The notes beneath the pieces are model-generated. The model saw only the letters and a list, made by a program, of their open reading frames with translations, did no database searches and was not told the origin of the DNA. Positions 1,309 to 40,391 of a stretch of DNA of 64,000 nucleotides are shown here, one piece after another. Positions within the stretch are counted from its first letter, which is position 1. Each line of letters starts with the position of its first letter. A program made the translations under genes and the position numbers. The stretch is from Malachius bipustulatus (lineage: Eukaryota > Arthropoda > Insecta > Coleoptera > Melyridae). Location of the stretch: contig OU342635.1 of the NCBI GenBank assembly GCA_910589415.1, positions 39,520,929 through 39,584,928 on the forward strand, written 5' to 3'.

Positions 1309-4300
1309 CTAATCATCCAAAGATTTCAGTTTTAGATAGAAGGGGACTTCATCCCGAATCATCTCGTTAATCTTAACATCCTATTTCAGGAGGTGATTAT
1401 TGCTATAAGGTATTAACAGTGACTCGGTTATAGCGGATTAGGATTCAGGGGAGAATCGGTGAGGGGAAAAATATCGAAAAATTAATCAAAGACTAGTTCT
1501 TTATTGTATGATGTAGGTGAGTTATAATAAAGCAACTAAATAGAAGTTTTTATGACTGTCTCGACCATATAGTCAACACCTAAGTCAAGTAGAAAAATTA
1601 CCCTCTTGTTTCGATCACTGAATTAGCAGGGTATCTTTTAACTTTGAATATTTCCCCTTCTATTGGATATTTTATTTTCCTTTATCCATTCCAATATTTT
1701 CAATAGAGAAATCCCATACCATTATGGATAGAATGAACTGGCCCATATATTCCTACAATTCCCTTATTACTCAGATGAGTAACGAGCCTAAGCTCACCAA
1801 TTGCCTAAACGAAAAAAAAAAAGGAAAATATGGAGTAAAAATAAGTAATTTTTATTATTAATTTATAACCGAGTAGGTACACTGTATTTGAATATATGGT
1901 AAAACTTTCTGTTATAAATCTCCCGAACTATAATAAAAATTTAGATTTAATATAATTTATAGCAGCTTTTAGAGGTAAGTACCTACGAACTAAAAGCACT
2001 TTATGGATCGATTTTCAATTTCTACCTCCATTGCATGCACGCATATTTTTCATTCTCTCTATGGAAATTAAGCTGCTAGGTGTTTTTGTGTAGGATTCGT
2101 AAAAATTATACGCATTAGAACTGTTTCGTGATAAATCGACAGCTCCATATTCAGCTTTTGGGGGAATAAAAAAAGGCGTAATTATAGGTGAATTGACAGT
2201 AATTACTTCTGGCAGGTCCGAAGTGGGAATTGACTGTCGGCTCAGCTTCTCCCAGGGGATAGCCTAGTTGTTTGCACACGACATTAGCTTCCGATTGGTC
2301 CCACTCGTCATCGCATATTGCACCCCATTGGCCGTTGTGGAGGACTTCTACATTTCCTGAAATTATGAATTAATTTTTTTAGGTCAGTGTTTCTTTTTTT
2401 AACGATTTACCTTTTTATCTTGGAAATTTCAAATGAGACTATCGAGGAACAAATAAGTGTATACCTGCATTCTCTTAGAAATAAAACAAGATATAATGAG
2501 ATAGATTTATAGGAGTTTATACTATACTTATAACCAATGTACAGGGTGTTTCTCCCCAAATTGTGTAAAATAATATCAACACCGAGATATTTTAATAAAT
2601 TAGGTACCATACAGGAGAAATACGAATGATAAATAGTGACAAAGATATACAAAATTAATAATTTTAAGCTTTTAACAAAAAATCATTAAGTGGCAACCGG
2701 ACATGAGTTACTTACTTGTAATTTCTGATTTCTTTGAAGTATATACAGGGTGGGCCACGGTATACGAAACGGAAGATTATGGCCGTGTCTCTGGATTTTA
2801 GGATCTTTTTATTTTTGGAGTGGATAGAGACCCGGCAGAGGTACGTTTTAAAATTATATTCATAATGTACAGGTTGTCCCAAAAGCATAAAACATATCAA
2901 AGTTATGTTTTTTTAAATGGAATGCTCCTATGTTATTGCATTTTTAGATTGTCTGAAAAGAGAAAATAAGATAGGCTTTTACAGTTGGTGCTTAAATTCA
3001 GAAGTTTTTGAGTTAAAAACAAGTGAAAATCGTCATTTTTCAAGTTCATGGCCCTGTACAACGAAAACGGCTCAAGATAGAGAAAAACGGTTTACATGTC
3101 CCTATTTTAACTTTTCATGTACGATCCTATGGTATAGAAACATTTGTGCTTTCTTTGATTTTTTTATTTGGCGACGCGTGGAGAAATCTCAGAATTTTTC
3201 AAATTTTTTATCACCCTGTATAAACATTTCATCTACATCGTAGGATAGTACATGAAAAGTTAAAATAGGGACATGTAAGCCGTTTTTCTCTATCTTCAGC
3301 CGTTTTCGTTGTACAGGGCCTTGAACTTGAAAAATGACGATTTTCACTTGTTTATAACTCAAAAACTTCTGAATTTAAGCACCAACTGTAAAAGCCAATC
3401 TTATTTTCTCTTTTCAGACAATCTAAAAATGCAATAACATAGGAGCATTCCATTTAAAAAAACATAACTTTGATATGTTTTATGCTTTTGGGAGACCCTG
3501 TTTCCGTTTCGTATACCGTGGCCCACCCTGTATATTTTGCTTAAAAATGGTTACCTATCTACTTAAAAAATTCAAACCTATTCTAAATGATCATTATGCG
3601 TGTGAATTATTTCCAAAAACAGCTGTACCTCCTATCTACTGTAAGAATGGTAGGTGCAGCTGTTTTTGGAAATAATAACTACTACAAGAATTTAGAAAAA
3701 ATAAAACTTTAAATTGATGAAGACGAAATATTGCCGGAAATATGATAAATACGATTTTCAAATAATAATTTTCATTACCTATTGGAGTGGAATTATTATG
3801 TAGCTTTGGAGCAAGCCAAAATGTTACATTCGTTATATTCTACTCTACTGTGTGTTTTTTTTTAATATAATGTAAAGATCACCTTTTGCCCCTCTCGAAT
3901 ATCCTCATTGTACCTATATCTCAAAAACTGTTGATAATTTACATAACAAACCTAATGGACTTTTTTTAGCAGAAATGTCTGGCTTTTGACTTGTATTTAT
4001 TGCTGTAATATTAGACTACAATAATTATTAGAAAAACGAAAAAATAAAAAAATTAAGCCGTCTTGGAGTTATAGAAAAAATGTAATTTTTTAGAATATAA
4101 AACACCCTGTAATTTCGTTAATATATAGTTGTTAATATCTAATTTTGTCTTTAAAAGAATTAAGTAAAATATTCTACCGTTGAAGTTTGTCCCCTTAATT
4201 CTGGGATATCCTGTATTAATTCATGTATCTGCATTTATTTAGGTAGGTACTTATTATAGGGATCGGAGTTTGTTGAAACCTTTTTGTTGTATTGTCAAAC

Positions 4301-7300
4301 CTGAAAATCCGAGGGGTTTGTAGGTACACGGAAGAAAAATTTCGAAACAAATGCTATAATAATTTAAAGCTCTGGTTGCCGATAATACAGGCTGGGCCAT
4401 CGAAAAGGTAACAAGCCTAATAGTTTGGAAAGTGAAGATGTATGCGAAAAACTCCGAAACAGGTCGATTTTGTTATCGAGGGGGACATATTTTCGTGACA
4501 AATTTAACTACCCAAGTTCACCCCTTTGGCAGGGGTAGCTACCCCTTTGCTTATCATCATAGGGAACAGATATCGAGTACTACATTATTTGAAAGCTACT
4601 TGAATTCTCTTTACAACGATATCCAACATTTTGAGTTTCGCTTACATACAGGATGGCCCAACGAAAACGTAACTCGCCTTAATCACTTGTATGTGTATGT
4701 AAGCCACCCTGTATGTAAGCGAAACCCAAAATGTTGGATATCGTTGTAAAGATAATTCAAGTATCTTTCAAATGATGTATCACTTTTGCTTACATACAGG
4801 GTGGCCCAACGAAAACGTAACTCACCTTAATCACTTTGTATGTAGGCCATCCTGTATGTAAGCGAAACCCAGGATGTTAGATATCGTTGTAAAGAGAATT
4901 TAAGTAGCTTTCAAATGATGTATCACTCGATAGCTGTTCCCTATGATGATAAGCAAAGGGGTAGCTACCCCTGCCAAGGGGGTGAACTTGGGTAGTTAAA
5001 CTTATCACGAAAATATGTCCCCCTCGATAACAAAATCGACCTGTTTCGGCGTTTTTCGCATACATCTTCACTTTTCAAATTATTAGGCTTGTTACCTTTT
5101 CGATGGCCCACCCTGTATATCATTTGAAATTAAAAGTCACCGCCATCATAAATGACTAATTAGGATAAGTATTACTTCCAATCTTTCGTATGGTATACTT
5201 TGTATGTGTCTGATTGATATAATATGCTGATGAGCCCATATTAAGGACGAAACGGTATCGTTCATTATCTTCAGTTTTCATCCCACGTGCTGTGCAAAAG
5301 AGTTTCAAGTTAAATTAGAATATAAATCAATATAAAATCTCAATTCTAACATAATTGTTACAATATAATAGAAGAAGATTAAAAAATATGAACATTAGAA
5401 ATTTCGCACCTAGAAAAATACGATTAAAAATGGAAAGATTTGAATGACTTCATATAATTTCTTGTAATCCTAATCATCAATCGAAACGTCCGCAATAAAG
5501 CCCTGCTTGCTCTTTTATTCATGTTTCATTATCCATCATTTTTTTTTTCAATTTGTTACCATTTCTAAAGGGCGCTGCGTCGTGTCACTGATCCCTCCAA
5601 TCAAGCTTCCATTGATTTCATGAATGTTCAATACATTATCATTTCCCCCGGTCATGAATCTTTTATAACTCGGACATGTCACGTATGCTCACATGAAAAA
5701 TACCTGTTATATTATTCGTCGGAAAAAAGTTGATTTCAATGTGGAATCAGTCAAATGGAAAGAGTTTTGTATCAAAGAGTTACATTGGCATCTACCTACA
5801 TATACATAGCGCCGAAAAACGATTAATTACGCATTGTAAATAAATCTAGGTGGAGTTTTCGTTTTAAAAGTATCCAGAAAAAATATGTTTTTGTTGGTTT
5901 CAACTGGATTACCTATTCACATTATGACGTGATCGTCAAATCTCATCGTAAGCTGAAACATAACATCAAGACACAAACAACAAAACTGACGTTTATAAAA
6001 AACAAAATCATGAAAACCTAATCCTAATTCTGAGAAAACTCATATACCCTACATAAAGCCTCTTCTCTGGAGTAAGTCTTGGGTAAATCTTACAAAAAAA
6101 GATACACAACTTCATGAAACCTAATTTAAATTTATAAATAACTTCGAAAGATATAATATTTATACGGACTTATTTTTGCATGCATGGGAGATCATACTTT
6201 ACAAAGCGATCCTTAAATAATTAGTGTTCTTGAATATTTAAGTGAAATATATATACAGGGTGTCAATTTGAAAACTTGCCACCCCCTAATTACCCTTAAA
6301 AAATGTTTCTCAAAGAAATCGCGAAACATGTCAACTTTGTCTTTTAATTTATGTTCTATTGACTAACATTTTTTTTATACAGAATGTTCCTTGGCTGAGT
6401 AATGACGACACTGTCTATTTTTTAAATTGAACACCCTGCATATTATTACAATTTCAGATTGTCTGAGAAAATCCAGTAAGAATGGTTTTTACAGTTAGAG
6501 TTTAAATTGAGTAAGTAAGCCGTTTTTCGATATTTAGAGCAGTTTCCGATGCACACTATTTTCAAAATCGAAAATTGCGATTTTCACTTGTTTATAACTC
6601 ATAACCTACTCAATTTAAACTGTAACTATAAAAATCATTCTTACTGGATTTTATCAGACAATCTGAAAATGTAATATACAGGCTGTTCAATTTAAAAAAA
6701 TATACAATGTCGTGATTACTCAGCCAAGGAAAATCCTTATATCAAAAAAATGTTACGTCAATAGAACATAAATTAAAAGACAAAATTGACCTGTTTCTGG
6801 ATTTCCTTGAGAAACATTTTTTAAGGGAAATTCGGGGGTGGGAAGTTTTCAAATTGACACCCTGTGTATTAATAATCTGACGTATTATTAAAAATTACAT
6901 TTAAAGAGCTTTATCGGTTTCCATTTCTTATACCATCATAACATTTTTCTCAACGTTAAGACGTGCTAGTGATGATGTTCAGGGCTTTTTCATCAAAATT
7001 ATATTGTATTTTCAAAATTTTTGAATTTTTTTCGATTTTTTTAAATTTAACCAATTATGGAGAAACTCCGTTGACCGAGTGGATTTTTATTCAACAAAAT
7101 GTCTGACCCTGTTTTTTTCTCATTAGGTACTTAGAAAAAAATAATTTATTCCTTTTGATTTGGTCAAGTGGAGTCTTGACTTGACCTAATCAAAAACGTG
7201 TAGGTAATACAAAAATATCTGGTTGAATCAATCTAATTAACCAAACGAACGAATATAAATAACATGAAAGAATTAAAGTTTTAGAAAATTTACAGATTTG

Positions 7301-7857: not shown

Positions 7858-8349
7858 ATGTACACGAGTCTAATTTCTTTGTAACACTGACACAATGTCT
7901 AAGATGACCCTAAGATTATAATGAATTGCGCCTTATCGAATTGGGAGACGCAACTTATTTGAAACTATTTCATGAGCGGGTTATTCTGTCATTATTAGAC
8001 ACGGGTTATTTATGTTTTTTCCTATTTTTGTTCAAAATTTGTTACGGGAAAGGATGTGATGTAATCAATTAGGTGACATCCTTTGTAGTATTGTTTTTGT
8101 ATTAGATTTTCATTGTTTTCTGGAGCGAGTGATGATTTCTTATATCAAGTAACCTTGAAGAGTGACATGGTTTTCAATACTTTGATAAAGTTTATATTAT
8201 GCAATCTTGTATAACTTGTATATAATAACAATTAATAGTTATATGTACTAATTATCTAAATATAAGTTTTATATTTATCCCAAGTAGCTCAATTAATTAG
8301 TCGTTTCTATATGAAAATTAAGAAATTCTTTCCTATTCTAGTCAAAACG

Positions 8350-8360
8350 ACTTATATTTT
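8350..8360. repeat. Left target-site duplication of the ribozyme array
   Basis: ACTTATATTTT, directly abutting the first unit of the array. The same 11 bases occur at the far end of the array at 16203-16213. The preceding G also matches, making 12. Confidence 0.85.
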
Positions 8361-8572
8361 GAAGAAAACAGAAGGCAGGTATACTCAAGGATTAATTCAT
8401 AAAAATAATGAATTGTAGGTCAATGAGTATAAGCACACAGAGTGCAATTGCTAGCCTGTTAGGTGGGTTCGGAGAAATCCTCCATCGCCCATAACAGTTG
8501 TCATGCTGGCAGTGCCCGAAACTCCAACCAGAGAGTTTGCTTCCGCATCCAACAGCAGAGCCTTCCAGAGTA

Positions 8573-8632
8573 CCAAATCAAGCACAGACACGTGTTTCGT
8601 TCTACTGGAACTCATCAGTGTGCTGCATTCGG
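8573..8632 (-). ncRNA. Hammerhead ribozyme, left arm copy 1
   Basis: Reverse complement of the reference copy at 12280-12339: GTTTCGTTC, TACTG, GAACTCATCAG in plus-strand reading at 8594-8617. All helices are kept. Confidence 0.9.
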
Positions 8633-9033
8633 AGTGTCTGGAGGATGCTGTCGGATGAACGGAAGCCGGGGCCTCTTAAGGCCAGCATTAACACGGAACT
8701 CCGTGTGGTGTAAAATAGAGCGACATCTAGCGGTCAGTTCAAGGAACTAACCGTGAGTTCACTCTAAATTGATTGAAGTTCCAGACACTACCAATAAAGC
8801 CGGTCGATGACAACGAATAATGAAGAAAACAGAAGGCAGGTATACTCAAGGATTAATTCATAAAAATAATGAATTGTAGGTCAATGAGTATAAGCACACA
8901 GAGTGCAATTGCTAGCCTGTTAGGTGGGTTCGGAGAAATCCTCCATCGCCCATAACAGTTGTCATGCTGGCAGTGCCCGAAACTCCAACCAGAGAGTTTG
9001 CTTCCGCATCCAACAGCAGAGCCTTCCAGAGTA

Positions 9034-9093
9034 CCAAATCAAGCACAGACACGTGTTTCGTTCTACTGGAACTCATCAGTGTGCTGCATTCGG
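9034..9093 (-). ncRNA. Hammerhead ribozyme, left arm copy 2
   Basis: Identical to left arm copy 1, one 461-base period on. Confidence 0.9.
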
Positions 9094-9494
9094 AGTGTCT
9101 GGAGGATGCTGTCGGATGAACGGAAGCCGGGGCCTCTTAAGGCCAGCATTAACACGGAACTCCGTGTGGTGTAAAATAGAGCGACATCTAGCGGTCAGTT
9201 CAAGGAACTAACCGTGAGTTCACTCTAAATTGATTGAAGTTCCAGACACTACCAATAAAGCCGGTCGATGACAACGAATAATGAAGAAAACAGAAGGCAG
9301 GTATACTCAAGGATTAATTCATAAAAATAATGAATTGTAGGTCAATGAGTATAAGCACACAGAGTGCAATTGCTAGCCTGTTAGGTGGGTTCGGAGAAAT
9401 CCTCCATCGCCCATAACAGTTGTCATGCTGGCAGTGCCCGAAACTCCAACCAGAGAGTTTGCTTCCGCATCCAACAGCAGAGCCTTCCAGAGTA

Positions 9495-9554
9495 CCAAAT
9501 CAAGCACAGACACGTGTTTCGTTCTACTGGAACTCATCAGTGTGCTGCATTCGG
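9495..9554 (-). ncRNA. Hammerhead ribozyme, left arm copy 3
   Basis: Identical to left arm copy 1, two periods on. Confidence 0.9.
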
Positions 9555-9955
9555 AGTGTCTGGAGGATGCTGTCGGATGAACGGAAGCCGGGGCCTCTTA
9601 AGGCCAGCATTAACACGGAACTCCGTGTGGTGTAAAATAGAGCGACATCTAGCGGTCAGTTCAAGGAACTAACCGTGAGTTCACTCTAAATTGATTGAAG
9701 TTCCAGACACTACCAATAAAGCCGGTCGATGACAACGAATAATGAAGAAAACAGAAGGCAGGTATACTCAAGGATTAATTCATAAAAATAATGAATTGTA
9801 GGTCAATGAGTATAAGCACACAGAGTGCAATTGCTAGCCTGTTAGGTGGGTTCGGAGAAATCCTCCATCGCCCATAACAGTTGTCATGCTGGCAGTGCCC
9901 GAAACTCCAACCAGAGAGTTTGCTTCCGCATCCAACAGCAGAGCCTTCCAGAGTA

Positions 9956-10015
9956 CCAAATCAAGCACAGACACGTGTTTCGTTCTACTGGAACTCATCA
10001 GTGTGCTGCATTCGG
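9956..10015 (-). ncRNA. Hammerhead ribozyme, left arm copy 4
   Basis: Identical to left arm copy 1, three periods on. Confidence 0.9.
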
Positions 10016-10416
10016 AGTGTCTGGAGGATGCTGTCGGATGAACGGAAGCCGGGGCCTCTTAAGGCCAGCATTAACACGGAACTCCGTGTGGTGTAAAATA
10101 GAGCGACATCTAGCGGTCAGTTCAAGGAACTAACCGTGAGTTCACTCTAAATTGATTGAAGTTCCAGACACTACCAATAAAGCCGGTCGATGACAACGAA
10201 TAATGAAGAAAACAGAAGGCAGGTATACTCAAGGATTAATTCATAAAAATAATGAATTGTAGGTCAATGAGTATAAGCACACAGAGTGCAATTGCTAGCC
10301 TGTTAGGTGGGTTCGGAGAAATCCTCCATCGCCCATAACAGTTGTCATGCTGGCAGTGCCCGAAACTCCAACCAGAGAGTTTGCTTCCGCATCCAACAGC
10401 AGAGCCTTCCAGAGTA

Positions 10417-10476
10417 CCAAATCAAGCACAGACACGTGTTTCGTTCTACTGGAACTCATCAGTGTGCTGCATTCGG
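10417..10476 (-). ncRNA. Hammerhead ribozyme, left arm copy 5
   Basis: Identical to left arm copy 1, four periods on. Confidence 0.9.
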
Positions 10477-10877
10477 AGTGTCTGGAGGATGCTGTCGGAT
10501 GAACGGAAGCCGGGGCCTCTTAAGGCCAGCATTAACACGGAACTCCGTGTGGTGTAAAATAGAGCGACATCTAGCGGTCAGTTCAAGGAACTAACCGTGA
10601 GTTCACTCTAAATTGATTGAAGTTCCAGACACTACCAATAAAGCCGGTCGATGACAACGAATAATGAAGAAAACAGAAGGCAGGTATACTCAAGGATTAA
10701 TTCATAAAAATAATGAATTGTAGGTCAATGAGTATAAGCACACAGAGTGCAATTGCTAGCCTGTTAGGTGGGTTCGGAGAAATCCTCCATCGCCCATAAC
10801 AGTTGTCATGCTGGCAGTGCCCGAAACTCCAACCAGAGAGTTTGCTTCCGCATCCAACAGCAGAGCCTTCCAGAGTA

Positions 10878-10937
10878 CCAAATCAAGCACAGACACGTGT
10901 TTCGTTCTACTGGAACTCATCAGTGTGCTGCATTCGG
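10878..10937 (-). ncRNA. Hammerhead ribozyme, left arm copy 6
   Basis: Identical to left arm copy 1, five periods on. Confidence 0.9.
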
Positions 10938-11338
10938 AGTGTCTGGAGGATGCTGTCGGATGAACGGAAGCCGGGGCCTCTTAAGGCCAGCATTAACACG
11001 GAACTCCGTGTGGTGTAAAATAGAGCGACATCTAGCGGTCAGTTCAAGGAACTAACCGTGAGTTCACTCTAAATTGATTGAAGTTCCAGACACTACCAAT
11101 AAAGCCGGTCGATGACAACGAATAATGAAGAAAACAGAAGGCAGGTATACTCAAGGATTAATTCATAAAAATAATGAATTGTAGGTCAATGAGTATAAGC
11201 ACACAGAGTGCAATTGCTAGCCTGTTAGGTGGGTTCGGAGAAATCCTCCATCGCCCATAACAGTTGTCATGCTGGCAGTGCCCGAAACTCCAACCAGAGA
11301 GTTTGCTTCCGCATCCAACAGCAGAGCCTTCCAGAGTA

Positions 11339-11398
11339 CCAAATCAAGCACAGACACGTGTTTCGTTCTACTGGAACTCATCAGTGTGCTGCATTCGG
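11339..11398 (-). ncRNA. Hammerhead ribozyme, left arm copy 7
   Basis: Identical to left arm copy 1, six periods on. Confidence 0.9.
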
Positions 11399-11799
11399 AG
11401 TGTCTGGAGGATGCTGTCGGATGAACGGAAGCCGGGGCCTCTTAAGGCCAGCATTAACACGGAACTCCGTGTGGTGTAAAATAGAGCGACATCTAGCGGT
11501 CAGTTCAAGGAACTAACCGTGAGTTCACTCTAAATTGATTGAAGTTCCAGACACTACCAATAAAGCCGGTCGATGACAACGAATAATGAAGAAAACAGAA
11601 GGCAGGTATACTCAAGGATTAATTCATAAAAATAATGAATTGTAGGTCAATGAGTATAAGCACACAGAGTGCAATTGCTAGCCTGTTAGGTGGGTTCGGA
11701 GAAATCCTCCATCGCCCATAACAGTTGTCATGCTGGCAGTGCCCGAAACTCCAACCAGAGAGTTTGCTTCCGCATCCAACAGCAGAGCCTTCCAGAGTA

Positions 11800-11859
11800 C
11801 CAAATCAAGCACAGACACGTGTTTCGTTCTACTGGAACTCATCAGTGTGCTGCATTCGG
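11800..11859 (-). ncRNA. Hammerhead ribozyme, left arm copy 8, nearest the centre
   Basis: Identical to left arm copy 1. Its unit is cut off at 11948, but the ribozyme itself is whole. Confidence 0.9.
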
Positions 11860-12279
11860 AGTGTCTGGAGGATGCTGTCGGATGAACGGAAGCCGGGGCC
11901 TCTTAAGGCCAGCATTAACACGGAACTCCGTGTGGTGTAAAATAGAGCAACTGTTATGGGCGATGGAGGATTTCTCCGAACCCACCTAACAGGCTAGCAA
12001 TTGCACTCTGTGTGCTTATACTCATTGACCTACAATTCATTATTATTTTTATGAATTAATCCTTGAGTATACCTGCCTTCTGTTTTCTTCATTATTCGTT
12101 GTCATCGACCGGCTTTATTGGTAGTGTCTGGAACTTCAATCAATTTAGAGTGAACTCACGGTTAGTTCCTTGAACTGACCGCTAGATGTCGCTCTATTTT
12201 ACACCACACGGAGTTCCGTGTTAATGCTGGCCTTAAGAGGCCCCGGCTTCCGTTCATCCGACAGCATCCTCCAGACACT

Positions 12280-12339
12280 CCGAATGCAGCACACTGATGA
12301 GTTCCAGTAGAACGAAACACGTGTCTGTGCTTGATTTGG
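12280..12339 (+). ncRNA. Type I hammerhead ribozyme, reference copy (right arm, copy 1)
   Basis: Core CTGATGA at 12294-12300 and GAA at 12314-12316. Stem II is GTTC (12301-12304) with GAAC (12310-12313) around a 5-base loop. Stem III is A12317-T12324 and C12318-G12323 around ACGT. The cleavage triplet GTC ends at C12325. Stem I pairs AGCACA (12288-12293) with TGTGCT (12326-12331). After a 2x2 internal loop it continues with CCGAAT (12280-12285) and ATTTGG (12334-12339), including one G-T wobble. Self-cleavage at each copy would release 461-nt monomers. Stem III is very short, as in animal type I ribozymes of retroelements. CACGTG in stem III is self-complementary, so a dimeric form could build a longer helix. 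Confidence 0.9.
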
Positions 12340-12740
12340 TACTCTGGAAGGCTCTGCTGTTGGATGCGGAAGCAAACTCTCTGGTTGGAGTTTCGGGCAC
12401 TGCCAGCATGACAACTGTTATGGGCGATGGAGGATTTCTCCGAACCCACCTAACAGGCTAGCAATTGCACTCTGTGTGCTTATACTCATTGACCTACAAT
12501 TCATTATTTTTATGAATTAATCCTTGAGTATACCTGCCTTCTGTTTTCTTCATTATTCGTTGTCATCGACCGGCTTTATTGGTAGTGTCTGGAACTTCAA
12601 TCAATTTAGAGTGAACTCACGGTTAGTTCCTTGAACTGACCGCTAGATGTCGCTCTATTTTACACCACACGGAGTTCCGTGTTAATGCTGGCCTTAAGAG
12701 GCCCCGGCTTCCGTTCATCCGACAGCATCCTCCAGACACT

Positions 12741-12800
12741 CCGAATGCAGCACACTGATGAGTTCCAGTAGAACGAAACACGTGTCTGTGCTTGATTTGG
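12741..12800 (+). ncRNA. Hammerhead ribozyme, right arm copy 2
   Basis: Same 60 bases as 12280-12339; predicted cleavage after C12786. Confidence 0.9.
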
Positions 12801-13201
12801 TACTCTGGAAGGCTCTGCTGTTGGATGCGGAAGCAAACTCTCTGGTTGGAGTTTCGGGCACTGCCAGCATGACAACTGTTATGGGCGATGGAGGATTTCT
12901 CCGAACCCACCTAACAGGCTAGCAATTGCACTCTGTGTGCTTATACTCATTGACCTACAATTCATTATTTTTATGAATTAATCCTTGAGTATACCTGCCT
13001 TCTGTTTTCTTCATTATTCGTTGTCATCGACCGGCTTTATTGGTAGTGTCTGGAACTTCAATCAATTTAGAGTGAACTCACGGTTAGTTCCTTGAACTGA
13101 CCGCTAGATGTCGCTCTATTTTACACCACACGGAGTTCCGTGTTAATGCTGGCCTTAAGAGGCCCCGGCTTCCGTTCATCCGACAGCATCCTCCAGACAC
13201 T

Positions 13202-13261
13202 CCGAATGCAGCACACTGATGAGTTCCAGTAGAACGAAACACGTGTCTGTGCTTGATTTGG
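13202..13261 (+). ncRNA. Hammerhead ribozyme, right arm copy 3
   Basis: Same 60 bases as 12280-12339; CTGATGA at 13216, predicted cleavage after C13247. Confidence 0.9.
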
Positions 13262-13662
13262 TACTCTGGAAGGCTCTGCTGTTGGATGCGGAAGCAAACT
13301 CTCTGGTTGGAGTTTCGGGCACTGCCAGCATGACAACTGTTATGGGCGATGGAGGATTTCTCCGAACCCACCTAACAGGCTAGCAATTGCACTCTGTGTG
13401 CTTATACTCATTGACCTACAATTCATTATTTTTATGAATTAATCCTTGAGTATACCTGCCTTCTGTTTTCTTCATTATTCGTTGTCATCGACCGGCTTTA
13501 TTGGTAGTGTCTGGAACTTCAATCAATTTAGAGTGAACTCACGGTTAGTTCCTTGAACTGACCGCTAGATGTCGCTCTATTTTACACCACACGGAGTTCC
13601 GTGTTAATGCTGGCCTTAAGAGGCCCCGGCTTCCGTTCATCCGACAGCATCCTCCAGACACT

Positions 13663-13722
13663 CCGAATGCAGCACACTGATGAGTTCCAGTAGAACGAAA
13701 CACGTGTCTGTGCTTGATTTGG
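13663..13722 (+). ncRNA. Hammerhead ribozyme, right arm copy 4
   Basis: Same 60 bases as 12280-12339; predicted cleavage after C13708. Confidence 0.9.
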
Positions 13723-14123
13723 TACTCTGGAAGGCTCTGCTGTTGGATGCGGAAGCAAACTCTCTGGTTGGAGTTTCGGGCACTGCCAGCATGACAACTG
13801 TTATGGGCGATGGAGGATTTCTCCGAACCCACCTAACAGGCTAGCAATTGCACTCTGTGTGCTTATACTCATTGACCTACAATTCATTATTTTTATGAAT
13901 TAATCCTTGAGTATACCTGCCTTCTGTTTTCTTCATTATTCGTTGTCATCGACCGGCTTTATTGGTAGTGTCTGGAACTTCAATCAATTTAGAGTGAACT
14001 CACGGTTAGTTCCTTGAACTGACCGCTAGATGTCGCTCTATTTTACACCACACGGAGTTCCGTGTTAATGCTGGCCTTAAGAGGCCCCGGCTTCCGTTCA
14101 TCCGACAGCATCCTCCAGACACT

Positions 14124-14183
14124 CCGAATGCAGCACACTGATGACTTCCAGTAGAACGAAACACGTGTCTGTGCTTGATTTGG
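14124..14183 (+). ncRNA. Hammerhead ribozyme, right arm copy 5, with stem II mutation
   Basis: Differs from the others at 14145, where C replaces G just after CTGATGA. This base forms the 10.1-11.1 pair closing stem II against the core, so the change makes a C-C mismatch and should weaken cleavage after C14169. The remaining helices are unchanged. Confidence 0.85.
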
Positions 14184-14584
14184 TACTCTGGAAGGCTCTG
14201 CTGTTGGATGCGGAAGCAAACTCTCTGGTTGGAGTTTCGGGCACTGCCAGCATGACAACTGTTATGGGCGATGGAGGATTTCTCCGAACCCACCTAACAG
14301 GCTAGCAATTGCACTCTGTGTGCTTATACTCATTGACCTACAATTCATTATTTTTATGAATTAATCCTTGAGTATACCTGCCTTCTGTTTTCTTCATTAT
14401 TCGTTGTCATCGACCGGCTTTATTGGTAGTGTCTGGAACTTCAATCAATTTAGAGTGAACTCACGGTTAGTTCCTTGAACTGACCGCTAGATGTCGCTCT
14501 ATTTTACACCACACGGAGTTCCGTGTTAATGCTGGCCTTAAGAGGCCCCGGCTTCCGTTCATCCGACAGCATCCTCCAGACACT

Positions 14585-14644
14585 CCGAATGCAGCACACT
14601 GATGAGTTCCAGTAGAACGAAACACGTGTCTGTGCTTGATTTGG
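14585..14644 (+). ncRNA. Hammerhead ribozyme, right arm copy 6
   Basis: Same 60 bases as 12280-12339; predicted cleavage after C14630. Confidence 0.9.
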
Positions 14645-15045
14645 TACTCTGGAAGGCTCTGCTGTTGGATGCGGAAGCAAACTCTCTGGTTGGAGTTTCG
14701 GGCACTGCCAGCATGACAACTGTTATGGGCGATGGAGGATTTCTCCGAACCCACCTAACAGGCTAGCAATTGCACTCTGTGTGCTTATACTCATTGACCT
14801 ACAATTCATTATTTTTATGAATTAATCCTTGAGTATACCTGCCTTCTGTTTTCTTCATTATTCGTTGTCATCGACCGGCTTTATTGGTAGTGTCTGGAAC
14901 TTCAATCAATTTAGAGTGAACTCACGGTTAGTTCCTTGAACTGACCGCTAGATGTCGCTCTATTTTACACCACACGGAGTTCCGTGTTAATGCTGGCCTT
15001 AAGAGGCCCCGGCTTCCGTTCATCCGACAGCATCCTCCAGACACT

Positions 15046-15105
15046 CCGAATGCAGCACACTGATGAGTTCCAGTAGAACGAAACACGTGTCTGTGCTTGA
15101 TTTGG
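15046..15105 (+). ncRNA. Hammerhead ribozyme, right arm copy 7
   Basis: Same 60 bases as 12280-12339; predicted cleavage after C15091. Confidence 0.9.
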
Positions 15106-15506
15106 TACTCTGGAAGGCTCTGCTGTTGGATGCGGAAGCAAACTCTCTGGTTGGAGTTTCGGGCACTGCCAGCATGACAACTGTTATGGGCGATGGAGGA
15201 TTTCTCCGAACCCACCTAACAGGCTAGCAATTGCACTCTGTGTGCTTATACTCATTGACCTACAATTCATTATTTTTATGAATTAATCCTTGAGTATACC
15301 TGCCTTCTGTTTTCTTCATTATTCGTTGTCATCGACCGGCTTTATTGGTAGTGTCTGGAACTTCAATCAATTTAGAGTGAACTCACGGTTAGTTCCTTGA
15401 ACTGACCGCTAGATGTCGCTCTATTTTACACCACACGGAGTTCCGTGTTAATGCTGGCCTTAAGAGGCCCCGGCTTCCGTTCATCCGACAGCATCCTCCA
15501 GACACT

Positions 15507-15566
15507 CCGAATGCAGCACACTGATGAGTTCCAGTAGAACGAAACACGTGTCTGTGCTTGATTTGG
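15507..15566 (+). ncRNA. Hammerhead ribozyme, right arm copy 8
   Basis: Same 60 bases as 12280-12339; predicted cleavage after C15552. Confidence 0.9.
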
Positions 15567-15967
15567 TACTCTGGAAGGCTCTGCTGTTGGATGCGGAAGC
15601 AAACTCTCTGGTTGGAGTTTCGGGCACTGCCAGCATGACAACTGTTATGGGCGATGGAGGATTTCTCCGAACCCACCTAACAGGCTAGCAATTGCACTCT
15701 GTGTGCTTATACTCATTGACCTACAATTCATTATTTTTATGAATTAATCCTTGAGTATACCTGCCTTCTGTTTTCTTCATTATTCGTTGTCATCGACCGG
15801 CTTTATTGGTAGTGTCTGGAACTTCAATCAATTTAGAGTGAACTCACGGTTAGTTCCTTGAACTGACCGCTAGATGTCGCTCTATTTTACACCACACGGA
15901 GTTCCGTGTTAATGCTGGCCTTAAGAGGCCCCGGCTTCCGTTCATCCGACAGCATCCTCCAGACACT

Positions 15968-16027
15968 CCGAATGCAGCACACTGATGAGTTCCAGTAGAA
16001 CGAAACACGTGTCTGTGCTTGATTTGG
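15968..16027 (+). ncRNA. Hammerhead ribozyme, right arm copy 9
   Basis: Same 60 bases as 12280-12339; predicted cleavage after C16013. Last ribozyme before the right target duplication. Confidence 0.9.
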
Positions 16028-16202
16028 TACTCTGGAAGGCTCTGCTGTTGGATGCGGAAGCAAACTCTCTGGTTGGAGTTTCGGGCACTGCCAGCATGAC
16101 AACTGTTATGGGCGATGGAGGATTTCTCCGAACCCACCTAACAGGCTAGCAATTGCACTCTGTGTGCTTATACTCATTGACCTACAATTCATTATTTTTA
16201 TG

Positions 16203-16213
16203 ACTTATATTTT
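16203..16213. repeat. Right target-site duplication of the ribozyme array
   Basis: ACTTATATTTT, identical to 8350-8360 and in the same orientation. It begins where the last unit breaks off after TTTTTATG. Confidence 0.85.
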
Positions 16214-16462: not shown

Positions 16463-17450
16463 TACAGAGTGTCCCAATATTCCATAGACATGGAGCAACC
16501 ACAGATTACTGAGGTAAAAAAAAGTCGCTCGGACCAAACTTATCTCTATACCAAAATGCTTCATCGTTTGTCCGTTAGAGGGTTTCAAAGTCTTTTGAAA
16601 AGTTTAGTTTTTTTGAAATAGCTCAAAGTCGGCTGATTCCAATTCGATGAAATTTGGTAGGTAAATTTCTTATTAAAAGTACTAATTTCTGAGATGTTCG
16701 ATGTGGGCGCCAGTTTGGATCCTACAAAGTACCATCCTGCGCAAAAAATTTATTTGAATTCTTCTTGGAACCTCGTCGTTTTGCAAACTGTTTACTGCGT
16801 TTGAAAAATAAAAGTTTGCAAACACCTGAAAAAAAAAACCGAACCATATTAAACATCTTTTATGAGATTAGATCAAATAATCACCTGACAATTTTATTGA
16901 AAATTTGATTTCAAATTATTAAAAGAATGAAATAAAATTTTGGTTAGGTACCATCGACTAATTTATTTTTTCACATAGCACCTCGGAAAGATACAGATTT
17001 TTGTAGGAGACAAACAATGAGCTAAAACGATGTATCTTTCAAACAAAAAAACATGAACAGCGTTCCTGCTACCCTATCAACAATTACGATCGATTTTAAT
17101 GGAGGGTAGGGGTAGTTTCACCCCTTCCCGGGTTTGCGTCAAATTATCATGTACATCAGAAGTTAGTACTTTTAATAAGAAATTTACCTACCAAATTTCA
17201 TCGAATTGGAATCAGCCGACTTTGAGCAATTTCAAAAAAAATAAAATTTTCAAAAGACTTTGAAGCCCTCTCACCAGTGGCGGATTTCCGATTAGGCTAC
17301 GTAGGCTATAGCCTACGACGGCAAATTTTCGAAGATCAAAAATATTTTCGAGTGCTGGGAACTTACGTGACCTTGGTTATTGAAAAAAAATTTGCCTGCG
17401 GCGCTTTTTCGAGAGGGGGCCCTGGGCTTGCCTTTATGCAGCATCACTTA

Positions 17451-19534
17451 TACAGGGTGATTCATGAGTGACCTTACATAGACCAATGGTGATAAGCGGA
17501 CTTCAAGGCGGGTCGAAATCCACAAAAGAAATTTTTTTTGTGTGATTGGTTAAGAAGTTACAGGGTGTTTTATGTCTCAGGTACAAAACTTTGATAGGCG
17601 ATATTTCTGAAACGGCTGGAGATATTTTGTAGGAATTTACTAGGAATGGTGCATTCCGGAAACTCATCAAAACCGCATTCTGAGTTAATTAAAAATCCAG
17701 GACCGGACTTGAAAATTTTTTGCCCCCATGGTCTTTGTTGAAAAAGTTTATTTTCTGACCGTGCTAATGAAAAACTGTCATCGAATTTGAAAAGATAAGA
17801 AAAAACTCTATAGAAATCATTCCTCAATTTGAACGGCACACCCAAACCGTCTCGAAAAAAAAATGTCAAAGTAAAACTTCTCAGTAAATTATCGTTTTCG
17901 AGCAGACATCTTTTACTTAATGTTCGTCTGAATTCCTTCAAATTTATTTTTTGACTTGTTTTTGTGGGAAAAATGTTGGACAGAAGGCCAAGCTTTATTA
18001 CTGGGAAATCAGGTGTCAACTACAAAATTTTCAGATTTCACTAATAATCACAAATCATTTCACTAATAACGAATACCAGACATTATGTTTGTGTATGGTT
18101 TCTGCAATGGAAATTCAAGAGCAGCTGCGAAAGAATACCATAAAAGATCACAATCGAAGAACACCGGCCCATGTAACGTTTCGCGTCTGTTTTTCAATTT
18201 TCTCGAAACCACGGCATATTTCCCTGAGTTCAAAGGAATGCTGAACCTCAATTGGAAAATCTGAGCCATCAAAACATCGTGGAGATGGTGGCAGTTCCAA
18301 GTACAAGTACGCGAAGAATTGGGCAAGCACTGAGCATTTCTCAATCAAGAGTATGGCGAACTTTGAAAAAAAGAAGAGCGGATGCCATCCCTGTCACGTA
18401 CAAAGCGTACAGAGGCTTCAACCATTCAATGAAGTTCCATTGAATGGACTGCGTAGAATTTTGTGTACAGATCGAAGCTCAGTTCACGCGGGATGGTGTA
18501 ACGAATAAAAAAAACTCCCACCTATGGGCATATGAAAATCCGCGCTCTGTTGTTCAGAAGAACTCGCAACAGATTTTCTATAAATGTGCAGTATGGCATT
18601 GCAAATGATACCCTAATAGGACCCCATTTTTTGCTGGGCGGCTCACGGGGGAAATTTATTTACTTTTCCTACAAGTCATTTTGCCCGGCTTGCTTGCAGA
18701 GGCGAACGTGAATCGTTGGTTCGGGCGCGGCGGCCCTCATTCCTGACCACCTAGGTCCCCCAACCTCACTGTTTTAGACTATTACCCATGGGGCCATATG
18801 AAGCAGGAAGTCTAAAAAATGGAAGTAAGTACCAGAGAGGAGCTCAGGACGCGAATACTGGTAGTTGCTGATGAAATTAGAAACAACAGGCAAATAATTC
18901 AAAAATCAAACCAAAATTTATGGAAACGCTGCAGGAAATGTATTGAAGTTGGTAAAGGACATTTTGAGAACCGTTTATAACATTAATATTAAACATTTAA
19001 TTTACTTTGACATTTTTCCCACAGAAACAAGTCAAAAAATAAATTTGAAGGAATTCAGACGAACATTAAGTAAACTATGTCTGCTCGAAAACGATAATTT
19101 ACTGAGAAGTTTTACTTTGACATTTTTTTTTCGAGACGGTTTGGGTGTGCCGTTCAAATTGAGGAATGATTTCTATAGAGTTTTTTTTTATCTTTTCAAA
19201 TTCGATGACAGTTTTTCAGTAGCACGGTCAGAAAATAAACTTTTTCAACAAAGACCATGGGGGCAAAAATTTTCAAGTCCGGTCCTGGATTTTTAATTAA
19301 CTCAGAATGCGGTTTTGATGAGTTTTCGGAATGCACCATTCCTAGTAAATTTCTACAAAATATCTCCCGCCGTTTCAGAAATATCGCCTATCAAAGTTTT
19401 GTACCTGAGGCATAAAACACCCTGTAACTTCTTAACCAATCACACAAAAAAAATTTCTTTTGTGGTTTTCGACCCGCCTTGAAGTCCGCTTATCACCATT
19501 GGTCTATGTAAGGTCACTCATGAATCACCCTGTA
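17451..19534. mobile_element. Tc1/mariner-type element with roughly 550-bp inverted repeats
   Basis: Begins TACAGGGTGATTCATGAGTG and ends with the inverse, flanked by TA on both sides. The inverted repeats run about 17451-18005 and 18990-19534. Between them lies a decayed transposase. A 149-residue minus-strand ORF in the left repeat and a similar plus-strand ORF in the right repeat are mirror copies of repeat sequence, not genes. It is nested in the hAT-like element. Confidence 0.85.
18070..18980 (+). pseudogene. Tc1/mariner-superfamily transposase, broken
   Basis: Pieces of an insect IS630/Tc1/mariner-type transposase are readable in order over changing frames. An N-terminal segment (DIMFVYGFCNGNSRAAAKEY) comes first, then a helix-turn-helix (STSTRRIGQALSISQSRVW, near 18300-18360). 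Next are WAYENP with PFFAGRLTGEIYL, then PPRSPNLTVLDYYPWGH with the last catalytic Asp of the DDD/E triad, then CIEVGKGHFENRL before a stop. There are several frameshifts and stops. The stretch that normally carries the middle catalytic Asp, between LLAE and NRW, is deleted. It cannot encode an active enzyme. Confidence 0.8.
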
Positions 19535-19982
19535 TACATAACAATTATGGCATTTTTGCGATCTTCACTTTTTTAACAAAAAATTGTAAAAATTTCGCGG
19601 GGGAGGTCCCCCGGACCCTATATGCGACGGGACTTAAATAATACCATAGGCGGCGATTTGATTCAGCCTATAGGCGGCGATTTGATTCAGCCTATAAGGC
19701 GGCACCTTTGTAAATCCGCCTCTGCTTCTCACGGACAAACGAAGAACTTTAGTATAGAGATAAGTTTGGTCCGAGCGACTTTTTTTACCTCAGTAATCTG
19801 TAGTTGCCCTATGTCCATGAAATATTGGGACAGCCTGTATATTCGCCTTGAAAGTATGAAATATTTTGAAAGTCCCACGAAAAGTTCTGCAGCAGTTCAA
19901 AATTTCGAATTAAAAATACCTAAAGACCTGCAAGAGCATAATTATTTAATAAAAACGTTTTTATAAATATATAGTTTCACTA

Positions 19983-20413
19983 TACAGGGTGTTAGTTAAG
20001 TACGGGGCCAAACTCCAAGGGGTGCTTCCTTGAGTGATTTTAAGAAGAAAAGTTCAAATAAGCATGGGTCCGAAAATGCATATTTTTCAAGATACAGGGT
20101 TTCAAACTTTTATTTTTTTTCTCGAAAACAAAGCAAGATATGAAAAAAACTCAAGAGATAAAATAGTTGTATTTCTAGTTGCTTAATTATTACAAACCCT
20201 CTTGTTATCACAAACAGAACTGCCAAATTGCAACAAAATTGATTGAAAGAGTTTAGAGATATTCACGAACATTCGATTTTTTTTTTAAGTTTGACACCCT
20301 GTATCTTGAAAAATATGCATTTTCGGACCCATGTTTATTTGAAATTTTCTTCTTAAAATCTCTCAAGGAAGCACCCCTTGGAGTTTGGCCCCGTACTTAA
20401 CTAACACCCTGTA
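19983..20413. mobile_element. Foldback element, TACAGGGTGTTAGTTAAGTA ends
   Basis: The arms of roughly 120 bases are inverse copies (GTACGGGGCCAAACTCCAAG at the left, mirrored at 20375-20400). The element is flanked by TA. 431 bp, no ORF. Confidence 0.85.
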
Positions 20414-20446
20414 TACCGCAAAGCCAATCAAAGCCAAAATTGTCAA

Positions 20447-25804: not shown

Positions 25805-38555
<12,751 letters not shown>

Positions 38556-40391
38556 CTGGAAAAAAAATATGGTGGTTAGAAAATTTCGTTTTTTGGAGGG
38601 GATGAATTATCGGCTGCCAAAATATAAGAGATAAATCGGATGTCTGAACTCTGAAGGATGATTCAAGGTTACCAGAATCTTCTTGGCAGGAAGAGATTAA
38701 AAACGTGCAAGTTACAGCCTTTTGCCCAGAAATTTACCCGAGCGATTTGAAAAAGTAACTACCGTTTGGAAGAAAATTACTGGGGGGCACCTAGGCAACC
38801 CCTCCAATTGAGGGAAAACATTTTCGTCCAATTTGTTCCTTGCGTTTACCTCCAGTACCGGGTGAGTCATTACATGGTCACGGGGAATATCTCAGAAACT
38901 AAGTCTTACAGTCTCAGGAACAAAAAATTTTCTGAGAAATGTGACCTTAAAAATTACATAGTTGGAAAATAGTTTTGAGCTTCTAAAATGGCCGCTATGG
39001 GGGCGTAAGGTAAGAGCCATGACGAAATAAAAAATTTGAGTTTTCCCATCATTTTTAAAAATTAGGGTATGTTCAAAATAGTTTCATTTTTTTATCTTGC
39101 AGTTTTCTTAATTACTCCATAAATAAAGTGGTGGGAAAACGTGAAAATTTTGGTAATTCAAATATCTATTATTCCGGTTAACCTCGACGGAATTTATCAA
39201 GATTAGTCTCATTACAAAGAGTTTTCCTTCTTCTGTCGATTGAATCTTCCGAATTTTCCATTTTATTACCACCGCAACCGCTAGAGGGTGTTATTTAATA
39301 TGTAAGGAAATACCGCGATTTTTCGAAAAAAAAAAAACAAATATCGCTGCACGCGCTAGACCCCTGCTCGACAAGACAAATTTTGAGAAAAGGACTGAAA
39401 TTATATAAAAACCCACTTTTCTTCCACTTGGAAAATTACAAGGCATTTTTTGTCACCATCTATCTGACTGTTATTATGACAAACTTCGAGTCTGACTGAA
39501 AAAGAACTTGTTATGAGAAAAAGCTTGTCTGTGTCGAAGTGTAAATTTTTTATACACTAGAAAGTGATCTGCCAGGTCAAAATTAATTTTAATATAATTT
39601 GAAAATATTTTGTATACAGCAGAAGACAAGCTTGTACCGGCCTTAGCAGGATTTAAACCCGGGTCCTTTGGAGCAAGAGTCACGGACCTGTACTATCAGG
39701 CAACTGCAAATTAACCTGCATAATTTAACAATGCGGTTTGTCGATAAGTACTTTAGATACCGTTTTTATTCGAGGAATTGTCTCATCAAATACCATTCGA
39801 GCTCATGCGGTTGTTTTCTTGTACGTACTTTCATGTAAGCAATTTAACTCTATCTACAGAAAAAATAAAGAGAGCATAGCCCGAGTGATTTTTCCTTTCG
39901 TTAAATTTCCAATGCAAATCTAGAATAACTGCACAAAAATATCCGGCTACATTGGAGCTTTAATGGTATTATTCCCCCCGACAAAAATTATCTGAACTAA
40001 ATAACACTCGGAAAAATTCCTGGAACTAACTATGTATAGGAAAAGCTATCTTGAAAAAAACTTGCAAGAGCTAACCTGACCTTACTTAACTTTAGATAGC
40101 TTGAGGAACGTTCTGTCTAATCCTTAAAAAAATAACCTTGGAAAAAGCTCCAGGAGTGAGTGAAATGGAAATCTACCCAAGCTAACCGCTCTACCTGCAT
40201 AAAAGCGTCAATTTATTAAAAAAAAATCGTAAAAAATGCTAGGCAAACTCTTATACTATTAAAAAAAATCCTGTGATCTCGAAATAAAATTCCAAAGAAC
40301 TTACAAATTTTTATTGAAAAATAATTTAAATAAAAATTACAGGAAAATTTCTGGTTAAAAAATTTACGCAGTATCGCCTATTTTAATAATA
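38556..40391 (-). other. Probable Gprk2 intron upstream of the RGS exon
   Basis: Must be intron if Gprk2 continues upstream, since the RGS exon starts in phase 1. I searched for the conserved GRK N-terminus and did not see it. Near 38860, ACCGGGTGAGTCATTACATG looks like an isolated transposon end. Confidence 0.5.

Follow-up and report, generated by a model that had tools for sequence, protein, structure and literature searches.

Two-armed insertions of a 461-nt hammerhead repeat in Malachius bipustulatus: a probable non-autonomous retrozyme sharing a start-site rule with a Penelope-like element

The 461-bp hammerhead ribozyme repeats at 8361-16201 of the window (the whole stretch analysed, 64,000 nucleotides of the beetle Malachius bipustulatus, assembly GCA_910589415.1, contig OU342635.1, positions 39,520,929 to 39,584,928) belong to a dispersed insertion built in a fixed two-armed pattern, and not to a satellite grown in place. 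We consider it quite probable that the locus is a non-autonomous animal retrozyme insertion, in which both cut strands of the target would have primed copying of one circular RNA by Penelope-type machinery. One rule, a single fixed start site per strand, is common to two hammerhead families and to the autonomous Penelope-like element P1 of the same genome (30/30, 8/8 and 6/6 pairs, respectively).

According to Tandem Repeats Finder, the repeats form two 461-bp arrays that adjoin at 11948, one spanning 8360-11948 and the other 11948-16207, and the unit of one is the reverse complement of the other's. The hammerheads divide in the same way, eight on the minus strand (8361-11948) and then nine on the plus strand (11948-16201), and the arms stand head to head, minus then plus, with the RNA 3' ends outward. 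The same 12 bp, GACTTATATTTT, occupy both flanks (8349-8360, and 16202-16213, where the first two bases match the unit too), and 8361-16201 is therefore one insertion, 7841 bp long and bounded by 12-bp target duplications. The minus-strand arm (8361-11948) comprises 7.8 units with eight hammerheads, and its outer end lies at unit position 226 (start site B, between CTTCTGTTTTCTTC and ATT); the plus-strand arm (11949-16201) comprises 9.2 units with nine hammerheads and has its outer end at about 188-190 (start site A, between CATTATTTTTAT and GA). At the head-to-head junction, 11948, the overlap is about one base. Units equal the reference unit, except that the first plus unit has three extra bases and the unit at 13795 a single substitution. 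A preceding sequence-only reading had described a single tandem array, which is ruled out by the strand flip; it overlooked this flip, and also the fixed position of both outer ends and the target duplication, features that together hold most of the information in the locus.

What that reading had said of the ribozymes held up. It had counted 17 hammerheads in 461-bp units with 16 copies unchanged; 17 cores were located, and 16 are identical over the 45-nt core. The first plus-strand type I hammerhead (12288-12331), with predicted cleavage after C12325 as proposed earlier, recurs every 461 bp up to 16019 (cleavage-site C at 12325, 12786, 13247, 13708, 14169, 14630, 15091, 15552 and 16013). The innermost minus-strand hammerhead (11808-11851), with predicted cleavage after C11814, recurs every 461 bp down to 8581 (cleavage-site C at 8587, 9048, 9509, 9970, 10431, 10892, 11353 and 11814). 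The altered plus-strand hammerhead (14132-14175, core copy at 14130) differs at one base, unit position 437, where stem II begins with C instead of G, and had no Rfam match at E up to 0.5. The Rfam type I model RF00163 aligns across its whole length (E 3e-6 with 601 bases searched) and finds 16 of the 17 copies at E 3.2e-4 in the 64-kb window; the score, 32.6 bits, lies slightly below the curated cut-off of 34. For stem I, described before as 6 bp plus a 6-bp helix beyond an internal loop, RNAfold gives three 6-bp helices separated by two loops, but its minimum-energy fold pairs the core otherwise than in the catalytic form. The unit has a GC content of 46% and is non-coding, its longest stop-to-stop frame being 95 amino acids, and judged from locus anatomy its insertions have no long terminal repeat (LTR). 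The label retrozyme-like fits these small non-coding repeats with type I hammerheads, target duplications and many near-identical dispersed copies. A loose core pattern occurs once more in the window outside the insertion, and the exact pattern had no match in IMG/VR. Every unit of 8361-16201 also contains CCGCTAGATGTCGC, at unit positions of about 315-340, which we take to resemble an insect CTCF site.

Searching the 544-Mb assembly of the beetle with the 461-nt unit gave 305 matches from the best 40 of 1002 candidates; 150 listed matches fell into 33 clusters including the window, and the other 32 loci were retrieved and aligned to a tandem of the unit. Both arms are present in 30 of the 33 loci, in the order minus-plus in all 30, and each of the 30 has one A and one B outer end, AA or BB being found in none. 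A coin toss would give this pattern with a chance of about 1e-9. The outer ends lie by BLAST at 190-206 (A) and 225-233 (B), ranges that include a few bases common to the target or run on into the target, and the two start sites are 35 nt apart. Loci hold 1.3 to 17 copies (median 4.4). The A arm, with a mean of 3.13 units, is about as long as the B arm, with 3.23, and exceeds it in 18/30 loci; the lengths of the two are correlated (Spearman 0.48, p 0.007). The inner ends are indistinguishable from uniform (Kolmogorov-Smirnov p 0.11), if somewhat denser near 46-92 and 369-415, and at the junctions the arms either overlap by 1-10 bases (19/30) or have 1-25 bases between them (11/30).

These inner ends bear on self-priming, in which a complementary DNA (cDNA) snaps back and copies itself into an inverted arm, as proposed for Penelope head-to-head copies (PMC3846280). 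The inner ends do coincide within 2 nt in 3/30 loci, but in 26/30 the distance between them on the unit exceeds 20 nt, and the four within 20 nt compare with 2.7 expected; the wide spread of these distances speaks against a main route of this kind, nor would snap-back lead one to expect that the second outer end is fixed as well. Self-priming was rejected on the inner-end distances and is very improbable.

Target duplications of 10-15 bp were found in 31/33 loci of the 461-nt family, with lengths of 12 bp in 15, 13 bp in eight, 14 bp in five, and 10, 11 and 15 bp in one each. When the loci are oriented by start site, C precedes the duplication in 21/31 and G follows position 12 in 16/31, with both in 11/31. 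Such a C-12-G target is near-symmetric, as would be expected from a dimeric endonuclease. An origin at the DNA level, whether by unequal exchange that enlarged a satellite, followed by inversion, by integration of a DNA circle or through faulty assembly, could appeal to the capacity of exchange to enlarge tandem repeats and to the difficulty of assembling near-perfect multi-kb arms. It hardly deserves credence in view of the target duplications, the two constant outer ends in 30/30 loci and a plus-minus order that never occurs; moreover, the arms join at positions that do not correspond and their flanks differ, which would not be so in a fold-back read.

The genome holds a second hammerhead family, with a 315-nt unit of 41% GC, for which the search gave 312 matches from 39 of 915 candidates and 150 listed matches formed 19 clusters. 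RF00163 scores 53.5 bits on this family and finds 9/9 copies in locus L045. Among the matches listed, 10 of the 19 clusters occupy two strands, minus-plus in 10/10, and of these 10 retrieved clusters the eight resolved all pair one end at 78-82 with one at 219-225 and have a 12-bp duplication. In the remaining two, L065/L066 and L067/L068, the left end falls at 222-227 and 212-219, varying with the aligner used, and the right end lies beyond the retrieved piece. The targets have C before the duplication in 8/8, G after position 12 in 7/8, G at -3 in 8/8 and C two bases beyond the G in 7/8, the flanks for comparison being 15% G and 18% C. The 219-225 site and site A of the 461-nt unit have TTATTTTTAT in common.

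A genome search for the GIY-YIG domain (PF01541) gave 150 matches, with 150 of 775 candidates scored, many of them within frames of more than 800 amino acids, and brought up Penelope-like families besides P1 (below). In the clusters of matches listed, 23 strand changes run minus-plus and two plus-minus, both of the latter between different score classes. The stretch C11:3382-82839 (our contig handle and positions, as below), with 24 GIY-YIG matches about 3327 bp apart, six minus and then 18 plus, is by these matches a Penelope-like element in giant head-to-head tandem. The family P1 (loci L071-L078) codes for RVT_1 and GIY-YIG, and its ends were read with a 360-bp probe, for which 40 of 53 candidates yielded 41 matches. 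Of these, 12 span the whole probe, 19 end at probe positions 267-272, six at 225-231, and four are of other kinds. Each of the six two-armed P1 insertions has one end at 225-231 and one at 267-272 (C4:8142052/8145246, C2:46970413/46975864, C14:28999591/29000620, C14:42472975/42479580, C13:45305545/45310676 and C6:41921581/41924749). All six 225-231 ends lie inside these two-armed pairs and the ends outside pairs are at 267-272 in 13/13, which suggests that site 267-272 may be used first; a one-site bias like that of P1 was not seen in the three single-arm loci of the 461-nt family. P1 itself was considered as the partner of the 461-nt family and is probably not, because the AT-repeat targets read in three of its loci are unlike the C-12-G sites. 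There is no clear sequence common to P1 and either hammerhead unit (best E 0.25), and Rfam at E up to 1 found no hammerhead in the Penelope loci L071, L074, L079 and L080, in which short hammerhead-like strings are visible. The 461-nt family codes for neither reverse transcriptase nor GIY-YIG and, since no frame of its unit exceeds 95 amino acids, would be at most a user of Penelope machinery, not a member of the class.

We hypothesize that read-through transcription of an array would be followed by hammerhead cleavage into 461-nt units and their ligation to circles. An endonuclease, to judge from the insertions, would cut both target strands 12 bp apart and so create two 3' ends. From each of these, reverse transcription of the RNA circle may be primed at a fixed start of its own, A at about 190 and B at about 226. 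Both cDNAs, which are of the same sense, would make a varying number of turns and be joined at their stopping points, often with a few common bases. The expected product is a minus arm followed by a plus arm, both with the RNA 3' end pointing outward, between two copies of the duplicated target. Machinery of the Penelope type, combining reverse transcriptase with a GIY-YIG endonuclease, is the likeliest, because P1 in this genome inserts by the one-site-per-strand rule too. We further lean, with less assurance, towards Penelope-class retrotransposition in general being two-sided rolling-circle target-primed reverse transcription, in which a near-symmetric C-12-G cut would place each 3' end on its own start site of one circle. 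The 'tail' of these elements would then be the distance between the start sites, head-to-head copies their normal product and hammerhead retrozymes their stripped-down form.

A circular template for the 461-nt family is supported indirectly by differences from the reference that copies of a locus have in common, a variant being called fixed when it occurs in at least 75% of the copies covering the base. Four variants of L034 occur in both arms, each in 15/15 or 16/16 copies, as does one variant of L025, in 9/9. Variants private to a locus occur in L024, L034, L035, L039 and L040, and every covering copy has them: in both arms 4/4 in L024, 16/16 and 15/15 in L034, 3/3 and 3/3 in L039, and 17/17 for a one-base insertion in L040; in L035 the minus arm has it in 2/2, and the plus arm stops short of that base. 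The minus arm of L011 is a mosaic, which exits the 461-nt unit at 250, makes 2.8 rounds of the 315-nt hammerhead unit and re-enters at 351. A nested insertion is ruled out here, as the 461-nt unit re-enters at a different position and the 315-nt stretch (4629-5505) has no duplication at its flanks; the excursion looks like a template switch between two circles.

The same data test the alternative in which both strands were primed but the template was a linear multimer transcribed from an older array, not a circle, or in which a long interspersed nuclear element (LINE) acted by twin priming. Older arrays are already homogeneous, so like copies would be expected from a multimer as well, and twin priming yields the minus-plus order. 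In LINE twin priming, however, the RNA 3' end serves as the start of one arm and variable internal positions as that of the other, which does not agree with two fixed start sites, one per strand, as in the Penelope-like P1. Variants private to a locus in all covering copies of both arms also speak against a linear multimer, and the L011 excursion would require two multimers. We regard this alternative as unlikely.

Several observations weigh against copying of one circle from two fixed sites by Penelope-type machinery. Three of the 33 loci are one-armed, L019 ending at B and L026 and L027 at A, and in the latter two a target duplication was looked for and none was found. In L012 and L013 the older base G returns once at unit position 112 in otherwise young arrays: 112T>G occurs in 1/12 and 1/14 copies, 2418 and 540 nt from the outer end. 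Such a single copy would be unexpected from a single circle unless by copying error or a second template, and it would fit a linear multimer. The start sites of the 315-nt family are about 145 nt apart, not 30-45, and P1 targets were AT repeats in the three loci read. For the purified Penelope-like protein PAc of Anolis, no strand difference in start site was reported in vitro (PMC11167929). RF00163 had no match in the window at the gathering threshold. Finally, because the best 40 of 1002 candidates were scored, which are the most similar ones, older copies of the 461-nt family are under-sampled.

The literature already describes retrozymes, Penelope copies that stand head to head and a pair of adjacent start sites, and the following comparisons concern the passages cited. 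For animal retrozymes, circular RNA is described, primed copying of circles has been proposed and so has a Penelope-like helper (PMC7229834); PMC7761336 presents the same model, and its passages cited here name no motif indicating the helper. The 461-nt family resembles them in its small dispersed tandem repeats, type I hammerheads, lack of LTRs, low GC content and target duplications of more than 4 bp, and in the proposal of a circular template and a Penelope-like helper. The retrozymes described there are direct tandem copies with units of 170-400 nt and less than 50% GC, whereas the unit here has 461 nt (its sister family 315 nt), and the sections cited describe neither two head-to-head arms nor a fixed outer-end pair nor a target motif such as those found here (PMC7229834). 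PAc cuts and extends both strands in vitro and starts at two adjacent internal sites, which correspond to the 'tail' (PMC11167929). Penelope-like elements of Adineta vaga have head-to-head pseudo-LTRs (pLTRs) with the tail on one and target duplications, self-priming being favoured there (PMC3846280). The present insertions are like PAc in their two adjacent start sites, AT-rich targets and the proposed cutting and extension of both strands, and like the A. vaga elements in their head-to-head arms, the tail on one, and target duplications; unlike these open reading frame-bearing elements, the 461-nt and 315-nt families are non-coding, and the one-site-per-strand rule is strict in both families and P1, in contrast to PAc (PMC11167929, PMC3846280). 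Schistosome W-elements and Sm-alpha type repeats are satellite-like with functional type I hammerheads and, for one element, a target duplication, but the text cited does not describe a two-armed architecture for them (PMC8490949). Plant LTR retrozymes are likewise non-coding with a hammerhead and circular RNA, the latter putative here, but have type III hammerheads, LTRs, a transfer RNA primer site and 4-bp duplications, none of which occurs in the 461-nt family (PMC11722881). The one-site-per-strand rule on rolled circles was not found in the open-licence PMC papers cited here.

Elsewhere in the window, frames at 26626-27617 and 38038-38733 on the minus strand resemble exons of a G-protein-coupled receptor kinase. 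Further near-perfect inverted repeats at 2869-3501, 4385-5118, 17449-19536 and 19981-20415 are probably palindromic transposon remnants, and a weak RAGATH-25 match at 441-489 on the plus strand (E 0.039, 26 bits where the cut-off is 49) is probably due to chance.

With arms on both strands, transcription across the locus in either direction would give hammerhead-bearing RNA from one arm. In the passages cited here, the mobilising machinery of animal retrozymes and the template role of their RNA circles are left unsettled (PMC7229834, PMC7761336), and the head-to-head copies of Penelope are left without a settled explanation (PMC3846280). A single rule, seen in this genome in two hammerhead families and in the autonomous P1, connects these questions.

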